Assembly (NCBI RefSeq): GCF_002217355.1
Contig: NZ_MUHA01000003.1
Span: 1 to 64,000 of the forward strand
Source of the DNA: Flavobacterium oncorhynchi
GTDB taxonomy: Bacteria > Bacteroidota > Bacteroidia > Flavobacteriales > Flavobacteriaceae
Direction of reading: 5' to 3'
DNA length: 64,000 nucleotides
In this document: in pieces, positions 9,801 through 54,689 of the stretch
Numbering within the stretch: the first letter of the stretch is position 1
Layout: every line of letters starts with the position of its first letter
The notes under the pieces: model-generated
Told to the model about the DNA's origin: nothing
The model's input: the letters and a program-made list of their open reading frames with translations, nothing else
Databases searched by the model: none
Translations under genes and position numbers: made by a program

Positions 9801-9940
9801 TTGCCACTAATTACACAAATTTGCCCGAATTTCTTTTTATTCTGCCACAGATTAAAGGATTAAAATGATTCAATCTGTGTAAATCTTCTAATCTGTGGCA
9901 AAAAAGTTTAATTAGTGTAAATTTGTTTAATTAGTGGCAA
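9801..9940. repeat. Nested inverted GCCACAGATTA / GCCACTAATTACAC repeats
   Basis: An outer pair (TTGCCACTAATTACACAAATTT at 9801-9822, reverse complement-like at 9919-9940) encloses an inner pair beginning GCCACAGATTAAAGGATT at 9844-9861 and ending at 9899. The sequence fills the gap between the GNAT and cyclase genes. The same family recurs at 29002-29180, 29947-29990 and 31788-31849. Confidence 0.75.
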
Positions 9941-9945
9941 CCTCA

Positions 9946-10728
9946 TTAAATCTTATATAAAATTGGTTTTGATGGACTTGCATCATTTTCAAACGAAGCG
10001 ATTTGAAGATTTAGTATATAATTTCCATCTTCAATTTCATCTGGAACATAAATCATTTCCGTGATTGTGGCATTTAATCTTGCATCAGAATTAAGATTAT
10101 GCGTGTCTTTTACATTCCAAAACGCTTTGTGGGCTAATAATTTTCCTTCGTCATGTTCTTTGTCAACGCTTGGTAAATCGATCAATAAATGCTGAATTTC
10201 GCTTTCGCGGATAAATACTGCGGCTTCTTCAGATAAATATGGCGGATTTGTATTCGAGTATTTTCTTGACTTTTTGTCTTTTTGATTTGGAAGTGTTCGA
10301 ATTACTAACGCTTCGTTCGTCAAGCTGAGCGCAGTCGAAGCGCCTTCAGTTGTCACATTGAGCGAAGTCGAAATGTGTTCTTTAGTAATTACATAATCAT
10401 CTCCAATTTTAACAGGTTCAATCGTAATCAATTTAGCAAAAAAGAAAAACTGTTTTAAAGATTGATTGATACTGTAAAAATCATTTGTAATATGTCCCAG
10501 ACATTCCGTATGAGTTCCATGTCCATGCGGATTGAAGAAAATGTTATTAAAATTCGTAGATGATTTTCCTTCCGAAACTTTTCCAATCCAGTCTCCAAAA
10601 ACTACAGGTTCGATTGCAGGTTTTTCTATGTACCAAGCAATCGGGTTTTCGTCTGTATTGGTCAATGGAATAGATATATCAATAGGTTTTGATAAGTCGA
10701 TTTCGAAATTGTTTATTTTTGCTATCAT
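9946..10728 (-). CDS. Cyclase family protein (kynurenine formamidase-like)
   Basis: A 260-residue metal-dependent hydrolase of the cyclase/KynB-like family. The metal-binding motif is recognisable as NPHGHGTHTECLGHI (about residues 66-80), a variant of the HGTHxDxPxH pattern with Glu and Cys in place of Asp and Pro. LIDLPSVDKEHDEG supplies the later conserved Asp. The natural substrate is unknown and kynurenine formamidase activity should not be assumed. Residues about 118-139 are encoded by two in-frame copies of the TGAGCGAAGTCGAA repeat, a likely surface-loop insertion. The gene stands alone between repeat clusters. Confidence 0.85.
   Translation of the reverse strand: MIAKINNFEIDLSKPIDISIPLTNTDENPIAWYIEKPAIEPVVFGDWIGKVSEGKSSTNFNNIFFNPHGHGTHTECLGHITNDFYSINQSLKQFFFFAKLITIEPVKIGDDYVITKEHISTSLNVTTEGASTALSLTNEALVIRTLPNQKDKKSRKYSNTNPPYLSEEAAVFIRESEIQHLLIDLPSVDKEHDEGKLLAHKAFWNVKDTHNLNSDARLNATITEMIYVPDEIEDGNYILNLQIASFENDASPSKPILYKI
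10319..10375. repeat. Two in-frame TGAGCG(A/C)AGTCGAA repeats in the cyclase gene
   Basis: Direct copies at 10319-10342 and 10352-10375, 33 nt (11 codons) apart, are embedded in coding sequence. On the coding strand they give two similar peptides, STSLNVTT and STALSLTN. The core is the same as the palindromic intergenic elements at 2303 and 33828. Confidence 0.8.
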
Positions 10729-10735
10729 GTTGATC

Positions 10736-11273
10736 TAACCGCAAGGTTCGCTAAGGTTTACACAAAGGGCGCTAGGATTTTATTAGAGATTGTTGACTAC
10801 TCTTTTTATTCCGTTCTTTATTAAAGAAACATTAAAGTTCATTAATAAGCCTAGTTTGCAATTTGTTAATTTTAAATAAGTTAATAGCTGAGCAAAATGA
10901 ATTTCATTTAAACAATCGACAGCTTTTATCTCCAAAATTAGTTTATTTTCAACTAAAATGTCTAATCTATAACCAACATCTAATTTTACTTCTTCGTAAA
11001 TTAAAGGTAAAGATTTTTGTTTTTCAATTAGAAGACCTAATTTCTTTAGCTCGTAAAATAAACATTCTTCATAAGCACTTTCTAAAAGTCCAGGCCCTAA
11101 AGTTTGGTGTACCTTCAACGCGGAATGAAACACAATTCGAGATAAATCATTTTCTGACATATAACCAATATTTAAAGTTTCAAATATAACACTTGTCTCT
11201 TTGTAAATATAGATTTATTCCTACAAAATACAAATAGCGTTCTTTGCGTAAACCTTAGCGAACCTTGCGGTTA
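10736..11273. repeat. Inverted-repeat-bounded unit around the GxxExxY gene
   Basis: A 26-bp sequence starting TAACCGCAAGGTTCGC at 10736-10761 recurs as a perfect reverse complement at 11248-11273. The match extends imperfectly inward to about 40 bp per side. The unit of about 538 bp holds only the GxxExxY gene. I did not see flanking target-site duplications clearly. Confidence 0.75.
10783..11160 (-). CDS. GxxExxY protein (PD-(D/E)XK-like superfamily)
   Basis: A 125-residue protein named after its N-terminal motif, seen here as GPGLLESAYEECLFYEL (about residues 21-37). The central GYRLDILVENKLILEIKAVD (about 63-82) keeps the Asp...Glu-x-Lys pattern of the PD-(D/E)XK nuclease superfamily to which the family is assigned. 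No activity is established for the family. The gene is bounded by 26-bp perfect inverted repeats a few tens of bp from each end, and similar genes are commonly scattered in Bacteroidota genomes, so it may travel as a cassette. Confidence 0.9.
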   Translation of the reverse strand: MSENDLSRIVFHSALKVHQTLGPGLLESAYEECLFYELKKLGLLIEKQKSLPLIYEEVKLDVGYRLDILVENKLILEIKAVDCLNEIHFAQLLTYLKLTNCKLGLLMNFNVSLIKNGIKRVVNNL

Positions 11274-11276
11274 AAT

Positions 11277-12425
11277 TTAACTTTCAACATAAAATAAATC
11301 TGAAGCAATTCCATCCGTTAAGAATTTTCCTTTTGGAGTTGGTTTTAAAATGTTGTTTTTAATAGAAAGTAAATCATCATCTAAAAATTTCTGAGATTGT
11401 TTTTTGAGATAATTCAAATATTCCAAACCAAATTCCTTTTCAATACGATCTAAAGAAACGCCCCAAATGGTTCGTAATCCCGTCATTATATATTCGTTAT
11501 AACGATCTGAAATGGTCAAAATTTCCGTTTCTATTGGAAGTTCACTGTTTTGAATAGCTTTTAAATACAATGAATTATTGGCAATATTCCAGCCTCTTTT
11601 TTCGCCGTCATAACTGTGAGCCGAAGGTCCGATTCCGATATATTTTTTACCAAGCCAATAAGCCGAATTGTTTTTGGAGAAGTAATTCTTTTTTCCAAAA
11701 TTGGATAATTCGTAATGAATAAAACCATTTTTCTGAAGCGTATCCACCAAAATCATAAAATGATTCGAAGCCGCTTCGTCTTGGGGTTCAGCAATTTTAC
11801 CAGTTTGAATTAATTTGCTTAAGGCCGTTTTGGGTTCAACAGTTAAAGCATAACTCGAAATATGCGGAACACCAAAACTTAAAGCTGTTTCAATATTTTG
11901 TTTCCACATTTCGTCACTCATTCCTGGAATGCCATAAATTAAATCAAGCGAAATATTATCAAAATACTTCGTTGCTTCTTCTAAACATTTTTTGGCTTCC
12001 GCCGAATTATGAGCGCGATTCATCATCTTCAAATCTTCTTCATAAAAAGACTGAATCCCAATGCTTAATCTATTTATAGGGCTTTTAGATAATTCCAGAA
12101 TTCTTTCAGAAGATAAATCATCAGGATTTGCTTCCAAAGTAACTTCAGGGTTTTCTGAAACTTTATAGTTTTTATAAACTTCAGAAATTAAAAAGTTTAT
12201 TTCGTCATTTGATAACACTGAAGGAGTTCCGCCACCGAAATATATAGTTTCTACAATCTCATTGTCACTTCGAGCGGAGTCTAGAAGCTCATTTTTGCGC
12301 ATGGCAATTTCTTTAGCCAAAGCCAAAACCATTTCGTCTTTCTTTTTCATCGAAGTCGAAAAATGAAAGTCGCAGTAATGACAAGCCTGCTTGCAGAAAG
12401 GAATATGTATGTAGATACCGCTCAT
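11277..12425 (-). CDS. hemW: Radical SAM heme chaperone HemW
   Basis: A 382-residue radical SAM protein that binds heme and is thought to insert it into respiratory enzymes. The 4Fe-4S cluster motif is CKQACHYCDF (Cys 11, 15, 18); the residue after the third Cys is followed by Phe rather than the fourth Cys of HemN, which marks HemW. YFGGGTPSVL (about residues 62-71), LEANPDDL and RLSIGIQSF are SAM-binding and family segments, and the C-terminal HemN domain is present. Residues about 46-56 (ELLDSARSDNE) are encoded by a repeat related to the intergenic TGAGCGAAGTCGAA family. A true coproporphyrinogen oxidase role is unlikely. Confidence 0.93.
   Translation of the reverse strand: MSGIYIHIPFCKQACHYCDFHFSTSMKKKDEMVLALAKEIAMRKNELLDSARSDNEIVETIYFGGGTPSVLSNDEINFLISEVYKNYKVSENPEVTLEANPDDLSSERILELSKSPINRLSIGIQSFYEEDLKMMNRAHNSAEAKKCLEEATKYFDNISLDLIYGIPGMSDEMWKQNIETALSFGVPHISSYALTVEPKTALSKLIQTGKIAEPQDEAASNHFMILVDTLQKNGFIHYELSNFGKKNYFSKNNSAYWLGKKYIGIGPSAHSYDGEKRGWNIANNSLYLKAIQNSELPIETEILTISDRYNEYIMTGLRTIWGVSLDRIEKEFGLEYLNYLKKQSQKFLDDDLLSIKNNILKPTPKGKFLTDGIASDLFYVES
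12261..12290. repeat. In-frame GAGCGGAGTCTAGAAG repeat within hemW
   Basis: ATTGTCACTTCGAGCGGAGT followed by CTAGAAGCTC resembles the dispersed TGAGCGAAGTCGAA element with one arm degraded. It encodes about eleven residues between the SAM-domain helix and the YFGGGTP motif. Confidence 0.65.
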
Positions 12426-12552
12426 TTTGTAGTGTTCAGTGTTCAGTTTTTTTAGTATTCAGATTATTAGTGTTCAGTATTCAGGTTATTAGTATTCAGT
12501 TTTCTAATTTTCCGTGTTAGTTTGATGATTTTCAGTTTTTTATGCACTTAGT

Positions 12553-13072
12553 ACTAAAATCTGACCACTGATTACTCTTTTCTCACTCCAAACTTCTCTG
12601 GGTTTAAAAGCATATAGTTTAATAATTTACCTATTTCAATACTTTCAGATAAAAGTTCATTATAGTATTCGTTTGAAATATATTTACAAGCAAAAGCAAA
12701 TTCAAGCCAAACTTGTGTCTCAGAATTTTCGCCATCAGAATCGGTTAATTTACTGTAAAAATGTTTTGGATAAATGCGTTTTCTGTAAGCTTCGGCAATA
12801 GTAACTGGAACACTTCTAGATGAGCGTCTTATCTGATCGGTTAATGAATAAGTTTCTTCTTTTGGAAACTGTTTTGTAATATTGAATATCTTCATTGCTA
12901 AAGAAAAAGACTTTTTGTAAGCTAATAAATCTTGAAATCTCATCATTTTTTTATTCATAACGATTTTTCTGTAGGAAAATTACAAATAAAACAATAATTG
13001 TTTTCGACCTAATAATTGAATACTAAGAACTGATCACTAAAAATCTGACCACTGATCACTATTTTTTCACTC
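12553..13072. repeat. Direct repeats flanking the four-helix bundle gene
   Basis: A sequence of about 36 bp containing the identical core AAAATCTGACCACTGAT occurs at 12553-12588 and again in the same orientation at 13036-13072, at each end of the four-helix bundle gene. The 3' ends of both that gene and ruvC run into these copies. The upstream side (12430-12510) also contains tandem AGTGTTCAGTATTCAG-like sequence. Confidence 0.75.
12572..12958 (-). CDS. Four-helix bundle protein (23S rRNA IVP-like)
   Basis: A 128-residue small alpha-helical protein of the S23/four-helix bundle family first found in intervening sequences of some 23S rRNA genes. Signature segments are RFQDLLAYKKSFSLAMKIF at the N terminus, FPKEETYSLTDQIRRSSRSV (about residues 36-55) and IAEAYRKR. 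Its molecular role is unknown. It is not near an rRNA gene here. The coding region is enclosed by direct repeats, and its last codons lie inside one copy, suggesting mobility as a small repeat-bounded unit. Confidence 0.9.
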   Translation of the reverse strand: MNKKMMRFQDLLAYKKSFSLAMKIFNITKQFPKEETYSLTDQIRRSSRSVPVTIAEAYRKRIYPKHFYSKLTDSDGENSETQVWLEFAFACKYISNEYYNELLSESIEIGKLLNYMLLNPEKFGVRKE

Positions 13073-27781: not shown

Positions 27782-28990
27782 TTAAATATTTTGAGCCAGA
27801 ATAAACCCGCTTGTCCAGGCATTCTGAAAATTAAATCCGCCTGTAATAGCGTCGATATTTACAATTTCACCCGCAAAATAAAGGTTTTCATGGATTTTGC
27901 TTTCCATTGTTTTGAAATTGATTTCTTTTAAATCGATTCCACCGGCGGTTACAAATTCTTCTTTAAAAGTGCTTTTTCCGTTTACTTTAAATTCGGCTTT
28001 TGTAAGCTGTGTGGTTAAATTCTGTAATTGAATTTTAGATAAATCCGCCCATTTGGTTTCAACTTCAATACCCGAAGCTAAAACTAAACTTTCCCACAAA
28101 CGATTTGGAAAGTCAAAAGGAGATTTTTTTGAAACTGCTTTTTTAGCGTGTTCCTGTTTTAAGTCTTTTAGGATTTTTTCAGCATCTTCGTAATCAACAT
28201 CATTTAACCAATTGACAAAAATGGTAAACTGATAATTTTTATCGTGTAAAATACGTGCGCCCCAAGCCGAAAGTTTTAGAATCGCGGGACCGCTCATTCC
28301 CCAATGTGTGATTAACAAAGGTCCTGTTGATTCCAGTTTAGTATCTTTTACGTTTACGGTAACTTGTGCAGCAACGCCTGGCAATTCTTTAATTCTGGAA
28401 TCTTTGATATTGAATGTAAATAGGGAAGGAACTGGGCTTACAACAGCATGTCCGTGTTGTTGTAGCATTTCCCATATTTTTGGATTACTTCCTGTTGCCA
28501 TGACTAATTTTTCGGCAGCGAAATTGTCGCTTTGTGTATCAATTTTCCAGTGATTTTCTTTTTTGAAAATAGATTGCACGCTTTGTCCAGTCAATACTTT
28601 TATCCCTAGTTTTTCGGTTGCTTTTAGGAAACAGTCAATTATGGTTTGTGATGAATTAGAAACAGGAAACATTCTCCCGTCTTCTTCTATTTTTAATTCT
28701 ACACCATGTTTTTCGAACCATTCGATTGTATCTCCAGAACAAAATTGATGAAAAGGCCCGCGAAGTTCTTTTTCTCCACGAGGATAAAATTTAACCAATT
28801 CGTTTGGCTCAAAACAAGCGTGAGTAACGTTGCAGCGTCCACCACCGGAAACGCGGACTTTAGAAAGAACTTCTTTTCCTCTTTCTAAAATGGCAATTTT
28901 TAGTTTCGGATTTTTCTCTGCAATATTAATTGCGGTAAAAAAGCCTGCGGCGCCTCCGCCGACGATTAGTATGTCGAAATTTTTGATCAT
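27782..28990 (-). CDS. HI0933/BaiN family FAD-dependent oxidoreductase
   Basis: A 402-residue flavoprotein with an N-terminal Rossmann motif DILIVGGGAAGFFTAINIAE, the family signature VSGGGRCNVTHACFEP (about residues 47-62), MATGSNPKIW, and the C-terminal AGEIVNIDAITGGFNFQNAW. The family (YhiN/HI0933) binds FAD; BaiN acts in bile acid reduction in clostridia, but the role in flavobacteria is unknown. I choose the ATG at 28990, because the GTG at 29008 lies inside the GCCACGGATTACACGAATT repeat element. It is followed 6 bp later by the HAD gene. Confidence 0.87.
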   Translation of the reverse strand: MIKNFDILIVGGGAAGFFTAINIAEKNPKLKIAILERGKEVLSKVRVSGGGRCNVTHACFEPNELVKFYPRGEKELRGPFHQFCSGDTIEWFEKHGVELKIEEDGRMFPVSNSSQTIIDCFLKATEKLGIKVLTGQSVQSIFKKENHWKIDTQSDNFAAEKLVMATGSNPKIWEMLQQHGHAVVSPVPSLFTFNIKDSRIKELPGVAAQVTVNVKDTKLESTGPLLITHWGMSGPAILKLSAWGARILHDKNYQFTIFVNWLNDVDYEDAEKILKDLKQEHAKKAVSKKSPFDFPNRLWESLVLASGIEVETKWADLSKIQLQNLTTQLTKAEFKVNGKSTFKEEFVTAGGIDLKEINFKTMESKIHENLYFAGEIVNIDAITGGFNFQNAWTSGFILAQNI

Positions 28991-29001
28991 ATTTTTTTTG
29001 G

Positions 29002-29180
29002 TTGCCACGGATTACACGAATTGGCACTAATTTTTTTTGCCACAGATTACATTGATTTAAAGGATTTTTTCTTTTCGCCACGAATTACACAAATTTCCAC
29101 GAATTATTTTATCATGTTGAAATTTGTGTTATTCGTGGTAAACAAATCTGTGCTAATCCTTCAATCTGGGGCTATTTTTT
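29002..29180. repeat. Cluster of GCCACGAATTACACAAATT inverted repeats
   Basis: Several related units (GCCACGGATTACACGAATT, GCCACAGATTACATTGATT, GCCACGAATTACACAAATTT at 29077-29096) face reverse complements (AAATTTGTGTTATTCGTGG at 29120-29138, CAAATCTGTGCTAATCCT at 29143-29160). They fill the space between the flavoprotein and the GDPD gene. Confidence 0.75.
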
Positions 29181-29184
29181 ACTT

Positions 29185-29862
29185 TTATATTTTGTCTGGA
29201 TTATCAGAGATAATTCCGTTTACGTTATAACTTTTTACTTTTTGAATGTCTTCTTTGCTGTTTACTGTCCAAGGTAAAACGAGAAAACCTTTTTCCTGTA
29301 TATGATGAACATTTTCTGTATTCAATAAATTAAAATCAGGATGAATGGCTTTTGCTTTTATTTTTTCGGCGAAAGCCAAAGCGGTATTTATATCTTCCTC
29401 TGTTAAAACACCAATCGGGATATTTGAATTTAAAGTTGATGTTTCCTCTAACATATTCCAATCAAAACTTGAAACTATAAAATGATTGTAATTCCAGTTT
29501 TTATCTGAAATATATTCTTCAATTAATGCAACAACTTTATTGGGAGTTGCCAAACCTTTTAATTCAATATTGATGAGACATTTTTTATCAACCAGATCAA
29601 AAACCTCATTTAAAGTTGGGATTTGGTATTTCCCATCAATCAAAAATGATTTTAACTCAGCTAAAGAAAACGAATTTACTAAACCTTTTCCGTTTGTTGT
29701 TCTGTCAATGGTTTCGTCATGAATTACAATAATTTGTTCGTCAGAAGATAAATGAACATCTAACTCAATTCCATCTGAATTTAGGTCTAAGGCTTTTTGG
29801 AAAGCTTGTAAAGTATTTTCAGGTTCGTAGGCCTTGGCGCCTCGATGTGCAATTTTTAGCAT
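29185..29862 (-). CDS. Glycerophosphodiester phosphodiesterase
   Basis: A 225-residue GDPD-family enzyme predicted to hydrolyse glycerophosphodiesters to glycerol 3-phosphate and an alcohol. Catalytic and metal residues are seen in IAHRGAKAYEPENTL (about 3-17, His4/Arg5 and Glu) and GIELDVHLSSDEQIIVIHDE (about 36-55), followed by TIDRTTNGKG. There is no signal peptide, so it is likely cytoplasmic, unlike GlpQ. LPWTVNS and GIISDNPDKI close the barrel. It is surrounded by repeat clusters on both sides. Confidence 0.92.
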   Translation of the reverse strand: MLKIAHRGAKAYEPENTLQAFQKALDLNSDGIELDVHLSSDEQIIVIHDETIDRTTNGKGLVNSFSLAELKSFLIDGKYQIPTLNEVFDLVDKKCLINIELKGLATPNKVVALIEEYISDKNWNYNHFIVSSFDWNMLEETSTLNSNIPIGVLTEEDINTALAFAEKIKAKAIHPDFNLLNTENVHHIQEKGFLVLPWTVNSKEDIQKVKSYNVNGIISDNPDKI

Positions 29863-29878
29863 TTTGCAGTGTTTTTTC

Positions 29879-29990
29879 TAACCGCAAAGGTCGCAAAGTT
29901 TTACGCAATCCCGATAGCTATCGGGAGCAAATATTATAAAAAAAGTTAGCCACAGATTATAGGGATTAAACTGATTTTGAAATCTGTGAT
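29879..29990. repeat. Repeat cluster downstream of the starch locus
   Basis: TAACCGCAAAGGTCGCAAAG (same family as the GxxExxY borders) is followed by the perfect 18-bp palindrome TCCCGATAGCTATCGGGA (29909-29926) and a GCCACAGATTATAGGGATTA / AATCTGTG unit (29949-29988). No gene is visible here. Confidence 0.7.
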
Positions 29991-30000
29991 AAATTATGTC

Positions 30001-30070
30001 TCTCGCAGATTTAGCAGATTCGGCAGATTTTATTAAAATTATCTGCTCAATCTCCTAAATCTGCGAGAGA
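30001..30070. repeat. Palindromic TCTCGCAGATTTAGCAGATT element, copy 1
   Basis: TCTCGCAGATTTAGCAGATT faces AATCTCCTAAATCTGCGAGA across about 30 bp. A near-identical element in the same orientation lies at 31863-31932, so the lipoprotein amylase gene is bracketed by two copies. Confidence 0.8.
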
Positions 30071-30084
30071 AAAAAATATTTATT

Positions 30085-31746
30085 TTAAATCTCTTCTAAT
30101 AAAGCAATATCAAAATCATTGTCTATAATTACTTTTCCATCAATAACTTCAACATTTTGATTTGAATAAGCGTCTTTTAGTTTTGTTCCGTTTGGGAAGA
30201 TATCGCCAACAGGAAGTTCTTTTCTGCCTTTTGGCAGATCAACTCCCATAATTACTTTATCTGTAAAAGTGCCTTTGGTAAAGGTTCTAGAAAAAGTGTA
30301 AGGATACGGATTAATCAGTTTGTGAACACCCGCACCAACTGCTGGATGATTTTTTCTAAACTGACCTAATTTCTGCCAATGCAAAAGTGTTTTTTGTGTT
30401 TCGGGATTATTCTGTATAGCATCCCAATTCATATTCGAGCGTAAAGTGGCATCGCCTTGCGTTCCTTCAATAACTAAAGATCTTGCCGATTCGTCTCCAT
30501 AATATATTTGTGACATGCCTGGTGAGAGTAATAATTTAGTTCCGGCTTCGATACTTTTTGTTCGGTTCGCATCAAAAGGTTGTCCGTCGTCGTGCGAAGA
30601 CATATAGTTTAAAACCGAATATCCTTTTAAGTCATTATTTAAATGATTCGAATATTTAGAAAATAAACCTTCATAATCGTTTTGTGCAGCGTTCCATTTA
30701 AATTCAAAATTGATCATGCTGTTGAAACCATTTTGGAAATAATTTACTTTTCGATCTCCAAAATCATAATCCTGCCCGCCGCTTATTCCGTAACCGTAAA
30801 CTTCTGCAATGGTATAAAACTGATTTTGATCTAAAACTTCTTTTGGATGGTTTTTCTTCCATGTTTCAAAAGCGTAATCGCATTCTTTTTTAAAATCGGC
30901 CCAAACGTTTTCATCGGTATGTTTTACGGTATCTCCACGATAGCCGTCAACTCCAAATTCTAGAATATAATCTGTAAGCCATTTTATAATGTAATATTTT
31001 GGCGTTCTTGGATAATTTGTTCTTTTGAAGAATTCGTCAAGTGAAGTAATTTCTTTTTCGTAACGGCCTTCTTTTCTCCATTTTTCAATTAAAAAAGGAG
31101 GTAATTCCACTTCTTGAACACTTTCTGTTCTGACGTCTGGAAGATTATCAACCAAAGTACACATTGTTGTATTTTCGAACGATTTGTAATCACAGATAAC
31201 ACCAGTTCTAACCCAGTCTGAAGGCCAAACAGGATCTTCTGGAGTTACTGGTCCGGTGTGATTTATTACGCCGTCTAGAATTATTCGAATACCTTTTTCA
31301 TGTGCTTTTTTGACTAGTTTTGCCAAGTTTTCTTTTGTTCCAAAGTTTGGATCGAGAGCAGTCCAATCTTTTGCCCAATAGCCATGATAACCGTAACTCA
31401 ATCCGGTTCCCTCGTCAACTCCGTCGTGAATTTGTTCGACAATTGGCGTAAGCCAAATGGCATTTATTCCTAGTTTTTCAAAATAACCTGATTCGATTTT
31501 TTTGGTAATTCCTATGATGTCGCCGCCTTCAAATCCGCGTAGTTTTCCCGGAGTTTTGGTTCGGTTAAAGTTGACATCGTTGGAAGTGTCTCCGTTGTAA
31601 AAACGATCTGTAAGTAAAAAATAAACATTTGCTCCTTCCCAAACGAAAGGTGTTTTCGAAGTATTATTCATTGCAACTGATTTTGAGCCAGAACAACTCA
31701 TTGTTAAGTATACTAAAGATAAAAAAAGGAAAGTGTATTTTTTCAT
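30085..31746 (-). CDS. GH13 alpha-amylase family lipoprotein
   Basis: A 553-residue envelope alpha-glucan hydrolase. The start at 31746 gives a lipoprotein signal (LSLVYLTMSC, Cys about 17). The (beta/alpha)8 barrel shows the four GH13 regions: ILDGVINHTGP, GVDGYRGDTVKH (nucleophile Asp), TIAEVYGYG (acid/base Glu) and YMSSHDDG (third Asp). Region II has Tyr-Arg-Gly-Asp instead of the usual Phe-Arg-x-Asp. It belongs to the starch locus, downstream of the second GH13 gene, but is separated from it by a repeat cluster and bracketed by two TCTCGCAGAT elements. Surface or periplasmic side of the lipid anchor cannot be told. Confidence 0.92.
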   Translation of the reverse strand: MKKYTFLFLSLVYLTMSCSGSKSVAMNNTSKTPFVWEGANVYFLLTDRFYNGDTSNDVNFNRTKTPGKLRGFEGGDIIGITKKIESGYFEKLGINAIWLTPIVEQIHDGVDEGTGLSYGYHGYWAKDWTALDPNFGTKENLAKLVKKAHEKGIRIILDGVINHTGPVTPEDPVWPSDWVRTGVICDYKSFENTTMCTLVDNLPDVRTESVQEVELPPFLIEKWRKEGRYEKEITSLDEFFKRTNYPRTPKYYIIKWLTDYILEFGVDGYRGDTVKHTDENVWADFKKECDYAFETWKKNHPKEVLDQNQFYTIAEVYGYGISGGQDYDFGDRKVNYFQNGFNSMINFEFKWNAAQNDYEGLFSKYSNHLNNDLKGYSVLNYMSSHDDGQPFDANRTKSIEAGTKLLLSPGMSQIYYGDESARSLVIEGTQGDATLRSNMNWDAIQNNPETQKTLLHWQKLGQFRKNHPAVGAGVHKLINPYPYTFSRTFTKGTFTDKVIMGVDLPKGRKELPVGDIFPNGTKLKDAYSNQNVEVIDGKVIIDNDFDIALLEEI

Positions 31747-31787: not shown

Positions 31788-31849
31788 GCCACGAATTCAC
31801 GAATTTTTATTCTCAAAGATTGTCAAAAAATAATTCGTGAATTCGTGGC
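31788..31849. repeat. Perfect 18-bp inverted repeat GCCACGAATTCACGAATT
   Basis: Arms at 31788-31805 and 31832-31849 are exact reverse complements. The element belongs to the GCCACGAATT family and lies upstream of the lipoprotein amylase gene. Confidence 0.85.
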
Positions 31850-31862
31850 GGAAAAAAAAGTT

Positions 31863-31932
31863 TCTCGCAGATCTCGCAGATTTGGCTGATTTTTTTTTAA
31901 ATGATCTGCTTAATCTCCTAAATCTGCGAGAG
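31863..31932. repeat. Palindromic CTCGCAGAT element, copy 2
   Basis: TCTCGCAGATCTCGCAGATT ... CTTAATCTCCTAAATCTGCG, nearly the same as 30001-30070 and in the same orientation. Confidence 0.8.
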
Positions 31933-31943
31933 TGAAAATTTTG

Positions 31944-52404: not shown

Positions 52405-52504
52405 TTAACCGCAAAGAGTGCAGAGAAAAAAACGCAAAGGTTCGCAAAGTTGAAAAATAACTTTGCGAACCTTTGCGAAAAAAACTTGCGCTCTTTGCGG
52501 TTAG
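52405..52504. repeat. Nested inverted repeat TTAACCGCAAAGAG / AAAGGTTCGCAAAGTT
   Basis: Outer arms TAACCGCAAAGAG (from 52406) and CTCTTTGCGGTTA (to 52503) enclose a perfect 16-bp inner pair AAAGGTTCGCAAAGTT (52437-52452) / AACTTTGCGAACCTTT (52459-52474). It is the same family as the repeats at 10736, 11248 and 29880. No gene lies in it. Confidence 0.8.
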
Positions 52505-52732: not shown

Positions 52733-53467
52733 ATGATTTTAACTGTTGATGTTGGAAATACTCGAATTAAAGCAGCTGTTTTTGAAGGAACTGCTGTTTT
52801 GGAGAGTTTTGTTTTTGAGAAAAATGAGCTCGAAAAAAAAATTAAAAAAATTTTAGACAACTATCAAAAATGCTCAGATTTAATAGTTGCCTCAGTAGGT
52901 AATGTCGAAAAACAATCTTTTTTGATTTTTGAAAAGCAGTTAAAGGTTCATTTTTTTACTCACGAAGATAAATTTCCTTTTCATAATAAATACGCAACAC
53001 CCAAAACTTTAGGAATAGATAGGATGATTTTGGCAGCAGGAGCAACTTTGCAGTTTCCTAAACAAAACAGATTAGTGGTTGATGCCGGCACTTGCATAAC
53101 CTACGATTTCATCGACGAAAATGATAATTATTTGGGCGGTGCGATTTCTCCGGGACTTCGTCTGCGTTACGAATCTTTGCATAATTATACAGCCAGACTG
53201 CCTTTGCTGAGTTTTGAAGAACCAGATCAATATATAGGAAATACCACAATGCAGGCGATTCATTCAGGAGTTGTAAACGGCTTCGTCTATGAGATTGATG
53301 GTTTTATCGATGAATATCGCCGAAACTTTTCAAATTTTATAATAATTTTAACGGGAGGAGATGCAGAATTTTTGGCTAAACGATTAAAAAATACCATATT
53401 TGCCAATTCAAATTTCCTTTTGGAGAGTTTGAACCAAACATTTCAATATAAAATCAACAATGATTAA
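52733..53467 (+). CDS. coaX: Type III pantothenate kinase
   Basis: Phosphorylates pantothenate with ATP in the first step of coenzyme A synthesis. The 244-residue protein has the ASKHA fold motifs: LTVDVGNTRIKAAVFEG (phosphate-1, residues 3-19), TLGIDRMILAAGA (about 92-104), VVDAGTCITYDFID (about 117-130) and GGAISPGLRLRYESLHNYTA (about 138-157). Type III enzymes need a monovalent cation and are not inhibited by CoA. The gene starts a plus-strand operon; its stop overlaps the start of the next gene by 8 nt. Confidence 0.96.
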   Translation: MILTVDVGNTRIKAAVFEGTAVLESFVFEKNELEKKIKKILDNYQKCSDLIVASVGNVEKQSFLIFEKQLKVHFFTHEDKFPFHNKYATPKTLGIDRMILAAGATLQFPKQNRLVVDAGTCITYDFIDENDNYLGGAISPGLRLRYESLHNYTARLPLLSFEEPDQYIGNTTMQAIHSGVVNGFVYEIDGFIDEYRRNFSNFIIILTGGDAEFLAKRLKNTIFANSNFLLESLNQTFQYKINND

Positions 53468-54689
53468 AAAAATTATAATAAGCGCTTGTTTGCTTATATC
53501 GTTCGTTTCATTCGCTCAACAAGGTACTGCTTCTCCATATTCTTTTTATGGAATTGGTGATACTAGATTTAAAGGAACTCAGGAATTTAGGTCTATGGCA
53601 GGAGTTGCAGTTGAACAGGATAGTATTCACTTGAATATTGAAAATCCTGCGAGTTATGCGAGTTTGCTGCAAACAACATTTACAGTTGGGGGATCGTTTG
53701 GAACTTCTACTCTAAAAACAGATACAGAATCGGCAAAAGCACAAAGAGCCACTTTTGATTATTTGGCGGTTGGAATTCCAATGGGAAAATTTGGAGCTTC
53801 ATTTGGTTTAGTTCCGTTATCATCAGTTGGATATAAAATTTTAAATGATAATACAGCCACTCCTGGAGCAACAAGTACTCAGCTTAGCGGTAAAGGTGGT
53901 GTAAATAAAGCTTATTTTGGTTTAGGGTATAAAATTAGACGAAATTGGAATATTGGTGCTGACATGCAGTACAATTTCGGAACCATTAAAACAACAAGTG
54001 TAGAAGCTATATCAGGTGTTCAAAATTCGACTACAGAGTTAAATACTTCTGAATTATCTGGTGTGAATTTTAATATTGGTACTATGTATCAGACAAAGAT
54101 TTACAAAAAAGTTTCGTTGTTTACGAGTTTGAATTACACTTTTGCAAGTACATTAAGATCTAATAATACTAGAGAAATTACGGTAAGCGGTGATCCAGAT
54201 CCTTATGTTTATAATCCAGATGCAGAAGATTTAAAACTGCCAAACAAGTTAACTATTGGAGCTGGTATTGGAGAAGCTAGAAAATGGTTAGTAGGTACTA
54301 CAATGGCTTTTCAAGGAAATGGAGAATTTGCAAATTATTACAATGCAAACCCAAAAGTTCGTTACGAAAAATATGCTAAATATGCTGTTGGGGGGTATTT
54401 TATTCCAAACTATACTTCATTCACGAGTTACTTGAGCAGAATTACTTACCGTGCCGGATTAAAATATGAAAAATTAGGTTTAATAGTTAATAATCAGTCA
54501 ATAAATGATATTGGGATGACTTTAGGTGCTGGAATTCCAATTCCGGGGTATTTTTCAAATGTAAATATCGGAGTTGAATTTGGTAAAAGAGGAACGACGT
54601 CAGCGGGATTGATTCAAGAAAACTATGTAAACTTTAGTGCGAGTTTCTCATTTAATGATAAATGGTTTGTGAAGAGTAAATTTAATTAA
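53460..54689 (+). CDS. Outer membrane beta-barrel protein, FadL-like
   Basis: A 409-residue protein with a signal peptide (1-19, ending SFAQ) followed by an N-terminal hatch-like region (GTASPYSFYGIGDTRFKGTQ) and repeated amphipathic beta strands to an aromatic C terminus (NDKWFVKSKFN). The Gly/Ser/Asn-rich strands and N-terminal lid resemble OmpP1/FadL-type porins, though a specific substrate is not evident. Its ATG overlaps coaX by 8 nt and lptC follows 50 bp later; the coaX, OMP, lptC order suggests an envelope biogenesis unit. The function is unproven. Confidence 0.78.
   Translation: MIKKIIISACLLISFVSFAQQGTASPYSFYGIGDTRFKGTQEFRSMAGVAVEQDSIHLNIENPASYASLLQTTFTVGGSFGTSTLKTDTESAKAQRATFDYLAVGIPMGKFGASFGLVPLSSVGYKILNDNTATPGATSTQLSGKGGVNKAYFGLGYKIRRNWNIGADMQYNFGTIKTTSVEAISGVQNSTTELNTSELSGVNFNIGTMYQTKIYKKVSLFTSLNYTFASTLRSNNTREITVSGDPDPYVYNPDAEDLKLPNKLTIGAGIGEARKWLVGTTMAFQGNGEFANYYNANPKVRYEKYAKYAVGGYFIPNYTSFTSYLSRITYRAGLKYEKLGLIVNNQSINDIGMTLGAGIPIPGYFSNVNIGVEFGKRGTTSAGLIQENYVNFSASFSFNDKWFVKSKFN

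Follow-up and report, generated by a model that had tools for sequence, protein, structure and literature searches.

Single genes enclosed by repeats have been described in RAYT/REPIN systems and in intervening sequences of the 23S rRNA. RAYT genes (REP-associated tyrosine transposases) are flanked by their own repeats, the repeat type follows the gene, and the genes are mostly vertically inherited at the species level, as laid out in an excerpt of PMC3116915. For the S23 protein of the 23S rRNA intervening sequence, the excerpted text of PMC4990558 gives the function as unknown. It describes the S23-bearing intervening sequence of Coxiella as an ORF-bearing stem-loop that is cut by RNase III, and reports a mobile origin of such sequences as proposed but not shown.

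Here, we analyse a GxxExxY gene enclosed by inverted repeats within a window of 64,000 nt (i.e., the whole stretch of DNA under study). The literature searched (subscription journals outside its scope) yielded no function for GxxExxY, and no account of an association of the family with repeats was found in it either, mostly among titles and abstract starts.

The cassette in the window and its protein

The core TAACCGCAAGGTTCGCTAAGGTTTAC is found as an exact 26-nt inverted repeat at positions 10736-10761 and 11248-11273, just as an earlier note on this DNA had stated, and a single GxxExxY gene lies in between. The full arms comprise 42 nt each (10733-10774 on the + strand at the 3' side of the gene, with inward CRCRRAK-type units; 11235-11276 on the - strand at its 5' side, from the repeat search), are 90% complementary and show a spacing of 460 nt. 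When up to 3 mismatches are allowed, a 20-nt core occurs twice in the window compared to 0/100 shuffles. The one gene between the arms is the ORF at 10783-11160 (- strand, 125 aa); an overlapping + strand ORF of 108 aa is also present. Both neighbours are co-directional with the gene, i.e., a HemW-like radical SAM protein upstream (11277-12425, - strand), which serves as anchor for orthologous sites, and a putative cyclase downstream (9946-10728, - strand; ORF and family match). Repeats of another family (CTTCGACTGCGCTCAGC / CACTTCGAGCGGAGTC, about 10304-10375 and 12258-12290) are, by eye, in frame within the cyclase and HemW genes and look like hairpin elements inserted in coding sequence.

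The product of the enclosed gene matches PF13366 (PDDEXK_3; E 1.1e-40, 139.1 bits vs. a cut-off of 22) as well as TIGR04256 (GxxExxY; E 1.2e-42, 144.9 bits vs. a cut-off of 35). Across 16 diverse copies, E27 (in the GxxExxY motif), D67, E77 and K79 never vary, such that both the family assignment and the nuclease-like pattern proposed earlier are borne out. The AlphaFold2 model (pLDDT 95.9) shows a restriction-endonuclease-like core with the acidic D and ExK residues. With VIA-align, it is matched to SSO0001 (4ic1_G; Z 9.9, rmsd 3.5, 100 aligned), which we take to be a Cas4, to a restriction-endonuclease-like protein of Spirosoma (3ijm_A; Z 8.3, rmsd 3.2, 99 aligned) and to an archaeal Hjc (1gef_B; Z 7.1, rmsd 3.1, 86 aligned), while Hjc resolvases and EcoRV are among many structural matches near Z 6-7. 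Foldseek reports tRNA-splicing endonucleases among its weak matches (E at least 0.06), and Y1/HUH proteins are absent from the Foldseek and VIA matches listed. Respective family searches gave PF13366 only and no known transposase family. Model and residues support a PD-(D/E)XK nuclease fold with the catalytic residues in place, a fold that by itself does not tell the substrate.

Inward-facing repeat arrays around GxxExxY genes

GxxExxY genes are associated with arrays of a degenerate unit, CRCRRAK, that is shared by the arms and reads inward from both outer ends. Units are mostly spaced by 8-12 nt (commonest value 9), with a second peak at 21 nt. We counted a locus if CRCRRAK units were found on both sides, with at least 3 units in all.

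The gene is present in 50/61 Flavobacterium genomes with up to nine copies per genome. Our Flavobacterium loci comprise the 5 copies of the window's own genome, the best copy of 29 genomes and 20 copies hand-picked from four genomes. From these 54, we dropped L031 and L034 (short flank) as well as L045, L080 and L094 (motif not found by the script; L045 with an internal stop), and the resulting 49 loci collapse into 24 sites. Inward arrays on both flanks are observed for 34/49 loci, compared to 0/49 for outward and 1/49 for reversed-letter units. Among control genes, 5/338 show inward arrays (outward 5), as do 0/76 small genes and 0/33 S23 genes (35 loci, of which L107 and L125 were dropped). 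The comparison of GxxExxY flanks with those of other genes suggested in the earlier note thus supports that the gene and its inverted ends belong together (34/49 vs. 5/338).

A second set (genome_contigs) holds the best 80 of 588 confirmed loci, found with a query that represents just one part of the family. We dropped L177 and L222, and some of the Flavobacterium entries in this set are the same contigs as in our genome collection. Entries without that genus in the title form the set outside Flavobacterium (n=59). Here, 36/59 loci show inward arrays (outward 12/59, reversed 1/59). Without L163, which is a contig of the Flavobacterium genome G001, and L159, which is labelled Rhizobium but probably is a Flavobacterium, the count is 34/57. 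Among non-adjacent genes of the same contigs, 1/123 has inward and 1 has outward arrays. Some of the outward matches represent complete hairpins next to the gene, e.g., at L237 (by eye). With one representative per site, inward arrays are found for 15/24 sites in Flavobacterium and 32/53 outside (site-level Fisher p about 1e-16).

The pairing of the flanks leads to a similar picture. When the 5' flank is aligned with the reverse complement of the 3' flank (Smith-Waterman), 38/49 Flavobacterium loci score at least 30 and 32/49 at least 36, compared to 5.6% and 3.2% of mismatched flank pairs (n=980). Within 464 kb of the window's genome, only 4/339 ORFs of at least 100 aa reach 36, including the GxxExxY and S23 genes of the window. 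Unit count or inverted score together identify 43/49 loci in Flavobacterium and 43/59 outside; 6/49 Flavobacterium loci show neither. The window's genome has five PF13366 genes, all with iterated short repeats in their flanks (by eye) and each with its own sequence family, i.e., CCGCAAGG, CTCGCAGATT, CATTAAG (not CRCRRAK), CACAGATT and CACGAATTT. The second copy (L002) scored only 25 and has a hairpin on its 5' side while its 3' side is unclear.

To describe other groups, we compiled a further set from 24 of 30 loci of ten genomes (six fragments left out) and 5 of 8 plasmid matches; L245 and L246 (short or no 3' flank) and L270 (no motif) were dropped, which leaves 26 loci. Inward arrays are found for 11/26 (outward 4, reversed 1), for 6/12 outside the FCB group (outward 3, reversed 1) and for 5/18 when the eight genes already in the genome_contigs set are taken out. 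The association is therefore strong in Bacteroidota and looser elsewhere, given the lower rate in this further set of mostly other groups. Clear cases, by eye as well as by count, come from a Tolypothrix, an Anaerolineae and a Planctomycetota genome, all metagenome-assembled, such that their phylum rests on binning. In the Anaerolineae genome, three of four copies have inward arrays and the fourth has CACTGAT arms scoring 41. Regarding isolates, arrays flank a plasmid copy of Bacteroides finegoldii, while the copies of Sphingomonas, Treponema saccharophilum and Fusobacteria ZRK30 do not show such arrays on both flanks. On a plasmid of Sphingomonas parapaucimobilis (L266), the gene sits between fabD and fabG at 33 nt and 2 nt from its neighbours and has a CGCGAAG-type array that is confined to the 5' side. 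Plasmids and phages were searched with one query and hardly ever carry the gene (8/72,556 plasmid records, 0/50,697 phage records and one viral-contig locus).

Gene-less hairpins, orthologous junctions and joint evolution

The window holds several members of the repeat family that enclose no gene. One of the same kind as the cassette is located at 9801-9940. Others are hairpins with CACGGAT, CACAGAT and CACGAATT units at approximately 28998-29172 (nested by eye), a TCTCGCAGATT hairpin at 29999-30070, whose type is that of the arms of the GxxExxY copies L056 and L077, a CACGAATT hairpin at 31788-31849 and another TCTCGCAGATT hairpin at 31863-31934, which is missing from the orthologous junction of G053. 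In G057 (C1:1441694-1441993), four consecutive matches to the hairpin at 31788 are seen, a sign of tandem growth.

The earlier note had seen solo copies of the repeat family at 29880 and 52405. The repeat unit is indeed common to both places while the 26-mer itself is not shared, and neither copy is single: 52405-52500 is a gene-less inverted pair of CGCAAAG type, and 29880-29920 (+ strand) is what remains of a CGCAAAG hairpin, namely its left arm. G042, G006 and G054 have the whole hairpin at the orthologous junction, while the window's genome lacks the right arm and shows further hairpins behind the left one. The majority of the gene-less copies inspected form short hairpins by themselves, and the reading of solo repeats as target sites or scars is not supported. 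In G042 (53141-54577, spanning L315 and L316), an arm of the hairpin orthologous to 52405 carries a 1435-nt insertion with an ORF that resembles a transposase (by eye).

Across 464 kb of the window's genome, we find 50 arrays, and 14 of them have no other array at a distance of up to 150 nt. Pairs within this distance are convergent in 15 cases, divergent in 1 and of the same direction in 5. At 150-1500 nt, the GxxExxY cassette is the sole convergent pair, and three divergent pairs are 700-1500 nt apart. With a strict hairpin finder, just 2 nested pairs are found, and the one in G006 looks like two halves of a single hairpin. The support for nesting thus comes from individual cases judged by eye, i.e., from the window and others at the first junction, from G049, G053 and G015 at the second and from G015 at the third; in the region 29870-30090, a hairpin of one family lies in the loop of another in G049, G053 and G015 (by eye).

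Genome-wide CRCRRAKNNCRCRRAK matches number 1-20 in 11 gene-less genomes (reversed control 1-6), with a median of 23.5 in 50 gene-bearing ones (control 2; Mann-Whitney p 3e-5); the richer genomes reach dozens to more than 100. At most 10 matches are found in 10/11 gene-less and in 11/50 gene-bearing genomes, while the gene-less G044 has 20. Gene copies and arrays show a rank correlation of 0.68 (0.57 given genome size), compared to 0.29 for S23 counts after correction for size. These genome-level tests are inflated by shared ancestry, and one genome of the eleven is only 60% complete.

Relatives provide the empty sites that the earlier note had proposed to look for. Of 30 HemW junctions inspected by eye, 5 hold the gene with its arms and 1 a frameshifted gene. 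Gene-less hairpins are seen at 13 junctions (CACAAAG/CGCAAAG type) and at another 4 (CGCTGAT type), and 7 are without a hairpin. At the HemW-cyclase junction of two other species, L141 (G010) and L145 (G007), a short ORF, presumably GIY-YIG-like, takes the place of GxxExxY. A second junction (28990-29185) is empty in G053, G054 and G060 and filled with one or more hairpins in G000, G006, G008, G015, G042, G049, G052 and G057. The overlap on the empty allele is 7 nt (ATATTTT) in 4/7 filled genomes compared and 5-16 nt in the other three. It could be a target-site duplication but is AT-rich and seen at this single junction; beyond it, no target-site duplication was found. Other repeat families without such a gene inside show presence and absence as well. 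Movement of gene-less hairpins is supported by this presence and absence at orthologous junctions.

The gene-bearing copy, on the other hand, is not a recently jumping cassette since several species have inherited it at the HemW-cyclase junction, where selection on it is strongly purifying. Here, dN/dS is 0.04-0.08 in 14/15 pairs (dS 0.6-1.2), and the fifteenth pair (L053-L156) shows dN 0 at dS 0.11. The GxxExxY gene is thus under strong purifying selection. From the small mobile cassette of the earlier note, it remains that gene and inverted ends belong together and have gene-less relatives elsewhere, while a gene-bearing cassette was never caught moving. A homing-like behaviour is not supported: although the HemW-cyclase junction has empty and hairpin-only alleles, neither a recognition site nor allele conversion was seen. 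Of the two refuting outcomes the earlier note had named beforehand, i.e., the gene without repeats in all relatives or repeats equally common at unrelated small genes, neither occurred.

Gene and arms also evolve jointly. In L038 and L130, i.e., the copies of G057 and G049, the two arms have an identical 34-nt sequence that recurs unchanged in the window's copy (L001) on the 5' side, and the remaining HemW-site orthologues differ at few arm positions. Over eleven orthologous cassettes, 88% of the arm pairs are kept, compared to 27-44% when the arms are slid against each other. Double-change cells amount to 12 vs. 5.8 after shuffling (1/500 shuffles as high), while arm pairs with a double change are not unusually frequent (6 vs. 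4.6; 121/500 shuffles). That is, arms stay paired through some compensatory changes. For non-orthologous pairs, arm similarity follows protein identity (Mantel 0.23; maximum of 999 permutations 0.127), and 5/9 pairs above 75% identity have arms scoring at least 36. Among 14 large genomes, the CGCAAAG family is commoner along with the HemW-site gene (p 0.021; other family p 0.53), where the frameshifted G053 copy was counted as gene present, and the CGCAGATT family is commoner along with its clade's gene (p 0.062; other family p 0.5). This is only suggestive of a coupling of each gene clade to its own repeat family at the genome level, with a test keyed to the HemW-site gene.

Orientation, competing readings and known systems

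GxxExxY genes lie in sense between co-directional neighbours at 45/47 Flavobacterium loci (22/23 sites), compared to 186/344 ordinary ORF triples (loci at contig ends are left out of all orientation counts). Respective numbers are 52/72 for the genome_contigs set and 36/49 for its sites outside Flavobacterium. Gene-less hairpins are without such a bias (14/18 vs. 272/371). Such a placement is not expected of a free DNA transposon and suggests that the gene is expressed from the host operon or that a step at the RNA level is involved.

S23 genes provide a parallel. The window's S23 gene (23S rRNA IVP, four-helix-bundle; 12572-12958, - strand) lies alone between inverted iterated repeats of TTCAGTGTTCAG type (arms at about 12430-12486 and 13007-13062), and by eye all six S23 genes of the window's genome are placed in this way. 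In the genus, 20/33 S23 flanks score at least 30, compared to 6.8% of mismatched flanks, and S23 genes are in sense between co-directional neighbours at 32/32 loci (12/12 sites). Unlike the GxxExxY arms, their arm units are heptamer-like; a membership of S23 genes in the GxxExxY system was ruled out, with 0/33 flanks for CRCRRAK arrays.

The layout of the cassette family is that of two inward-facing CRCRRAK arrays that enclose either little, i.e., a short hairpin, or one gene, which is GxxExxY. On balance and with reserve, we lean towards a chromosomal repeat-nuclease system that would follow a RAYT/REPIN-like logic with an unrelated enzyme and of which the cassette would be the gene-bearing member of an inverted-repeat family. 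From the analogy with RAYT/REPIN and from the fold, we infer that GxxExxY binds, cuts and mobilises the hairpins. As a PD-(D/E)XK endonuclease, it would recognise the arrays, probably by docking as a dimer to arms in paired or cruciform form, and would nick or cut there. The released or copied hairpin could then be repaired or inserted elsewhere, sometimes into the loop of a hairpin already present, such that gene-less hairpins would spread in trans, while the gene-bearing copy would be kept in place as a resident enzyme expressed from the surrounding operon. Against this reading stand the mostly vertical inheritance of gene-bearing cassettes, the six of 49 loci with neither signal and the 5/18 of the further set; the count outside the FCB group and the array-poor among the gene-bearing genomes weaken it slightly. 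Furthermore, S23 cassettes have a similar architecture with a non-nuclease protein, and a nuclease may therefore not be what such cassettes need.

It is possible, if doubtful, that both genes represent a distinct bacterial class of operon-embedded stem-loop cassettes, in which one small sense ORF occupies the loop of an iterated inverted repeat and gene-less hairpins are the mobile derivatives. GxxExxY (CRCRRAK arrays) and S23 (heptamer-like arrays) would each have their own repeat type, and insertion would be hairpin- or RNA-dependent with existing loops among the targets, matching no known transposition class. If true, this would explain the purpose of GxxExxY and S23 genes and link them to rRNA intervening sequences.

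A strong alternative to the repeat-nuclease reading, though in itself rather unlikely, is a role at the RNA level. Here, the arms would pair in the polycistronic transcript with the ORF in the loop, and GxxExxY or a host RNase would process the stem-loops in the mRNA, i.e., the cassette would be an operon-embedded processing or autoregulatory device, with spread being secondary or RNA-mediated. The sense placement between co-directional genes (45/47 loci, 22/23 sites vs. 186/344; S23 32/32), the arm pairing that is kept with some compensatory change, the tRNA-splicing endonucleases among the weak Foldseek matches (E at least 0.06) and the RNase III-cut, ORF-bearing stem-loop that the excerpt of PMC4990558 describes for Coxiella are consistent with it. 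However, the bias is weaker in the genome_contigs set (52/72; 36/49 sites outside Flavobacterium) and missing for gene-less hairpins (14/18 vs. 272/371), and a promoterless ORF that needs read-through would yield part of the same bias. In addition, PD-(D/E)XK enzymes are mostly DNases.

GxxExxY could also be a passenger, i.e., a gene that was captured or domesticated and stays inside hairpins by coincidence, with another enzyme such as a Y1 transposase moving the hairpins. The stable inheritance of most cassettes, the host use suggested by strong purifying selection and the presence and absence of repeat families that have no such gene inside would fit. We nevertheless consider this improbable given that one gene is found again and again within one kind of repeat across genomes of several groups, that arms follow the protein clade and that gene-less genomes are poor in the repeats. 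Even less probable are arrays that act as operators bound by GxxExxY as an autoregulator, with solo hairpins marking regulated genes or terminators: arm sequences persist between species that are highly diverged at synonymous sites and the second spacing peak of 21 nt is about two helical turns, but inverted pairs on both sides, the presence and absence of hairpins and dozens to more than 100 array matches do not fit operators. That abundant intergenic hairpins happen to flank a small gene by chance can practically be dismissed, since hairpins are common in the window's genome but arrays flank only 0/76 small, 1/123 nearby and 5/338 other genes (site-level Fisher p about 1e-16), and all four controls (mismatched flanks, other genes, reversed letters, outward orientation) argue against it.

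With the repeat-nuclease reading, the GxxExxY family gains a partner sequence, a candidate substrate and a simple genetic system of one gene and one repeat, and the abundant CGCAAAG/CACAGAT-type hairpins of these genomes gain a candidate enzyme. If the nuclease moves or processes hairpins, the RAYT/REPIN way of life would have arisen independently a second time, or GxxExxY and S23 genes would share a new class of operon-embedded element. With its 125 aa, a nuclease specific to hairpins would be of practical interest as well.

Among known systems, the Cas4 / lambda exonuclease / Hjc branch of PD-(D/E)XK proteins shares fold and catalytic residues with GxxExxY. Cas4 has iron-sulphur cysteine ligands, whereas GxxExxY has no invariant cysteine, just 125 aa and low sequence identity. 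An insertion sequence with MITEs likewise combines one gene between inverted ends with short gene-less derivatives. The GxxExxY cassette is nevertheless not an insertion sequence of a known family: it has neither a transposase match nor a clear target-site duplication, its copies are stable and vertical, and it is hardly found on plasmids or phages. The TAACTGA heptamer repeats of Beggiatoaceae, Cyanobacteria and Bacteroidetes are iterated intergenic short repeats of patchy distribution, too, but nearly all are direct, and the excerpt of PMC4679880 that describes them makes no mention of a nuclease gene.

The 23S rRNA intervening sequence with its S23 ORF also places a small single ORF in the loop of a terminal inverted repeat. 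The proteins are unrelated, however, the cassette lies between the hemW-like and cyclase genes and not in rRNA, and the repeat units differ. With regard to RAYT/REPIN, the GxxExxY system does not count as a RAYT because its cassette encodes a PD-(D/E)XK nuclease of 125 aa instead of a Y1 HUH transposase, and its repeats are iterated 7-mers in contrast to the tetranucleotide-tagged REPs described in part of PMC3733652. What both have in common are single genes flanked by short repeats that are also dispersed without a gene as inverted doublets. For GxxExxY, both the repeat flanks and the dispersed hairpin doublets are found, its arms follow protein identity (Mantel), with a weak coupling of repeat type and gene clade at the genome level (p 0.021 and 0.062), and its gene is mostly vertical.
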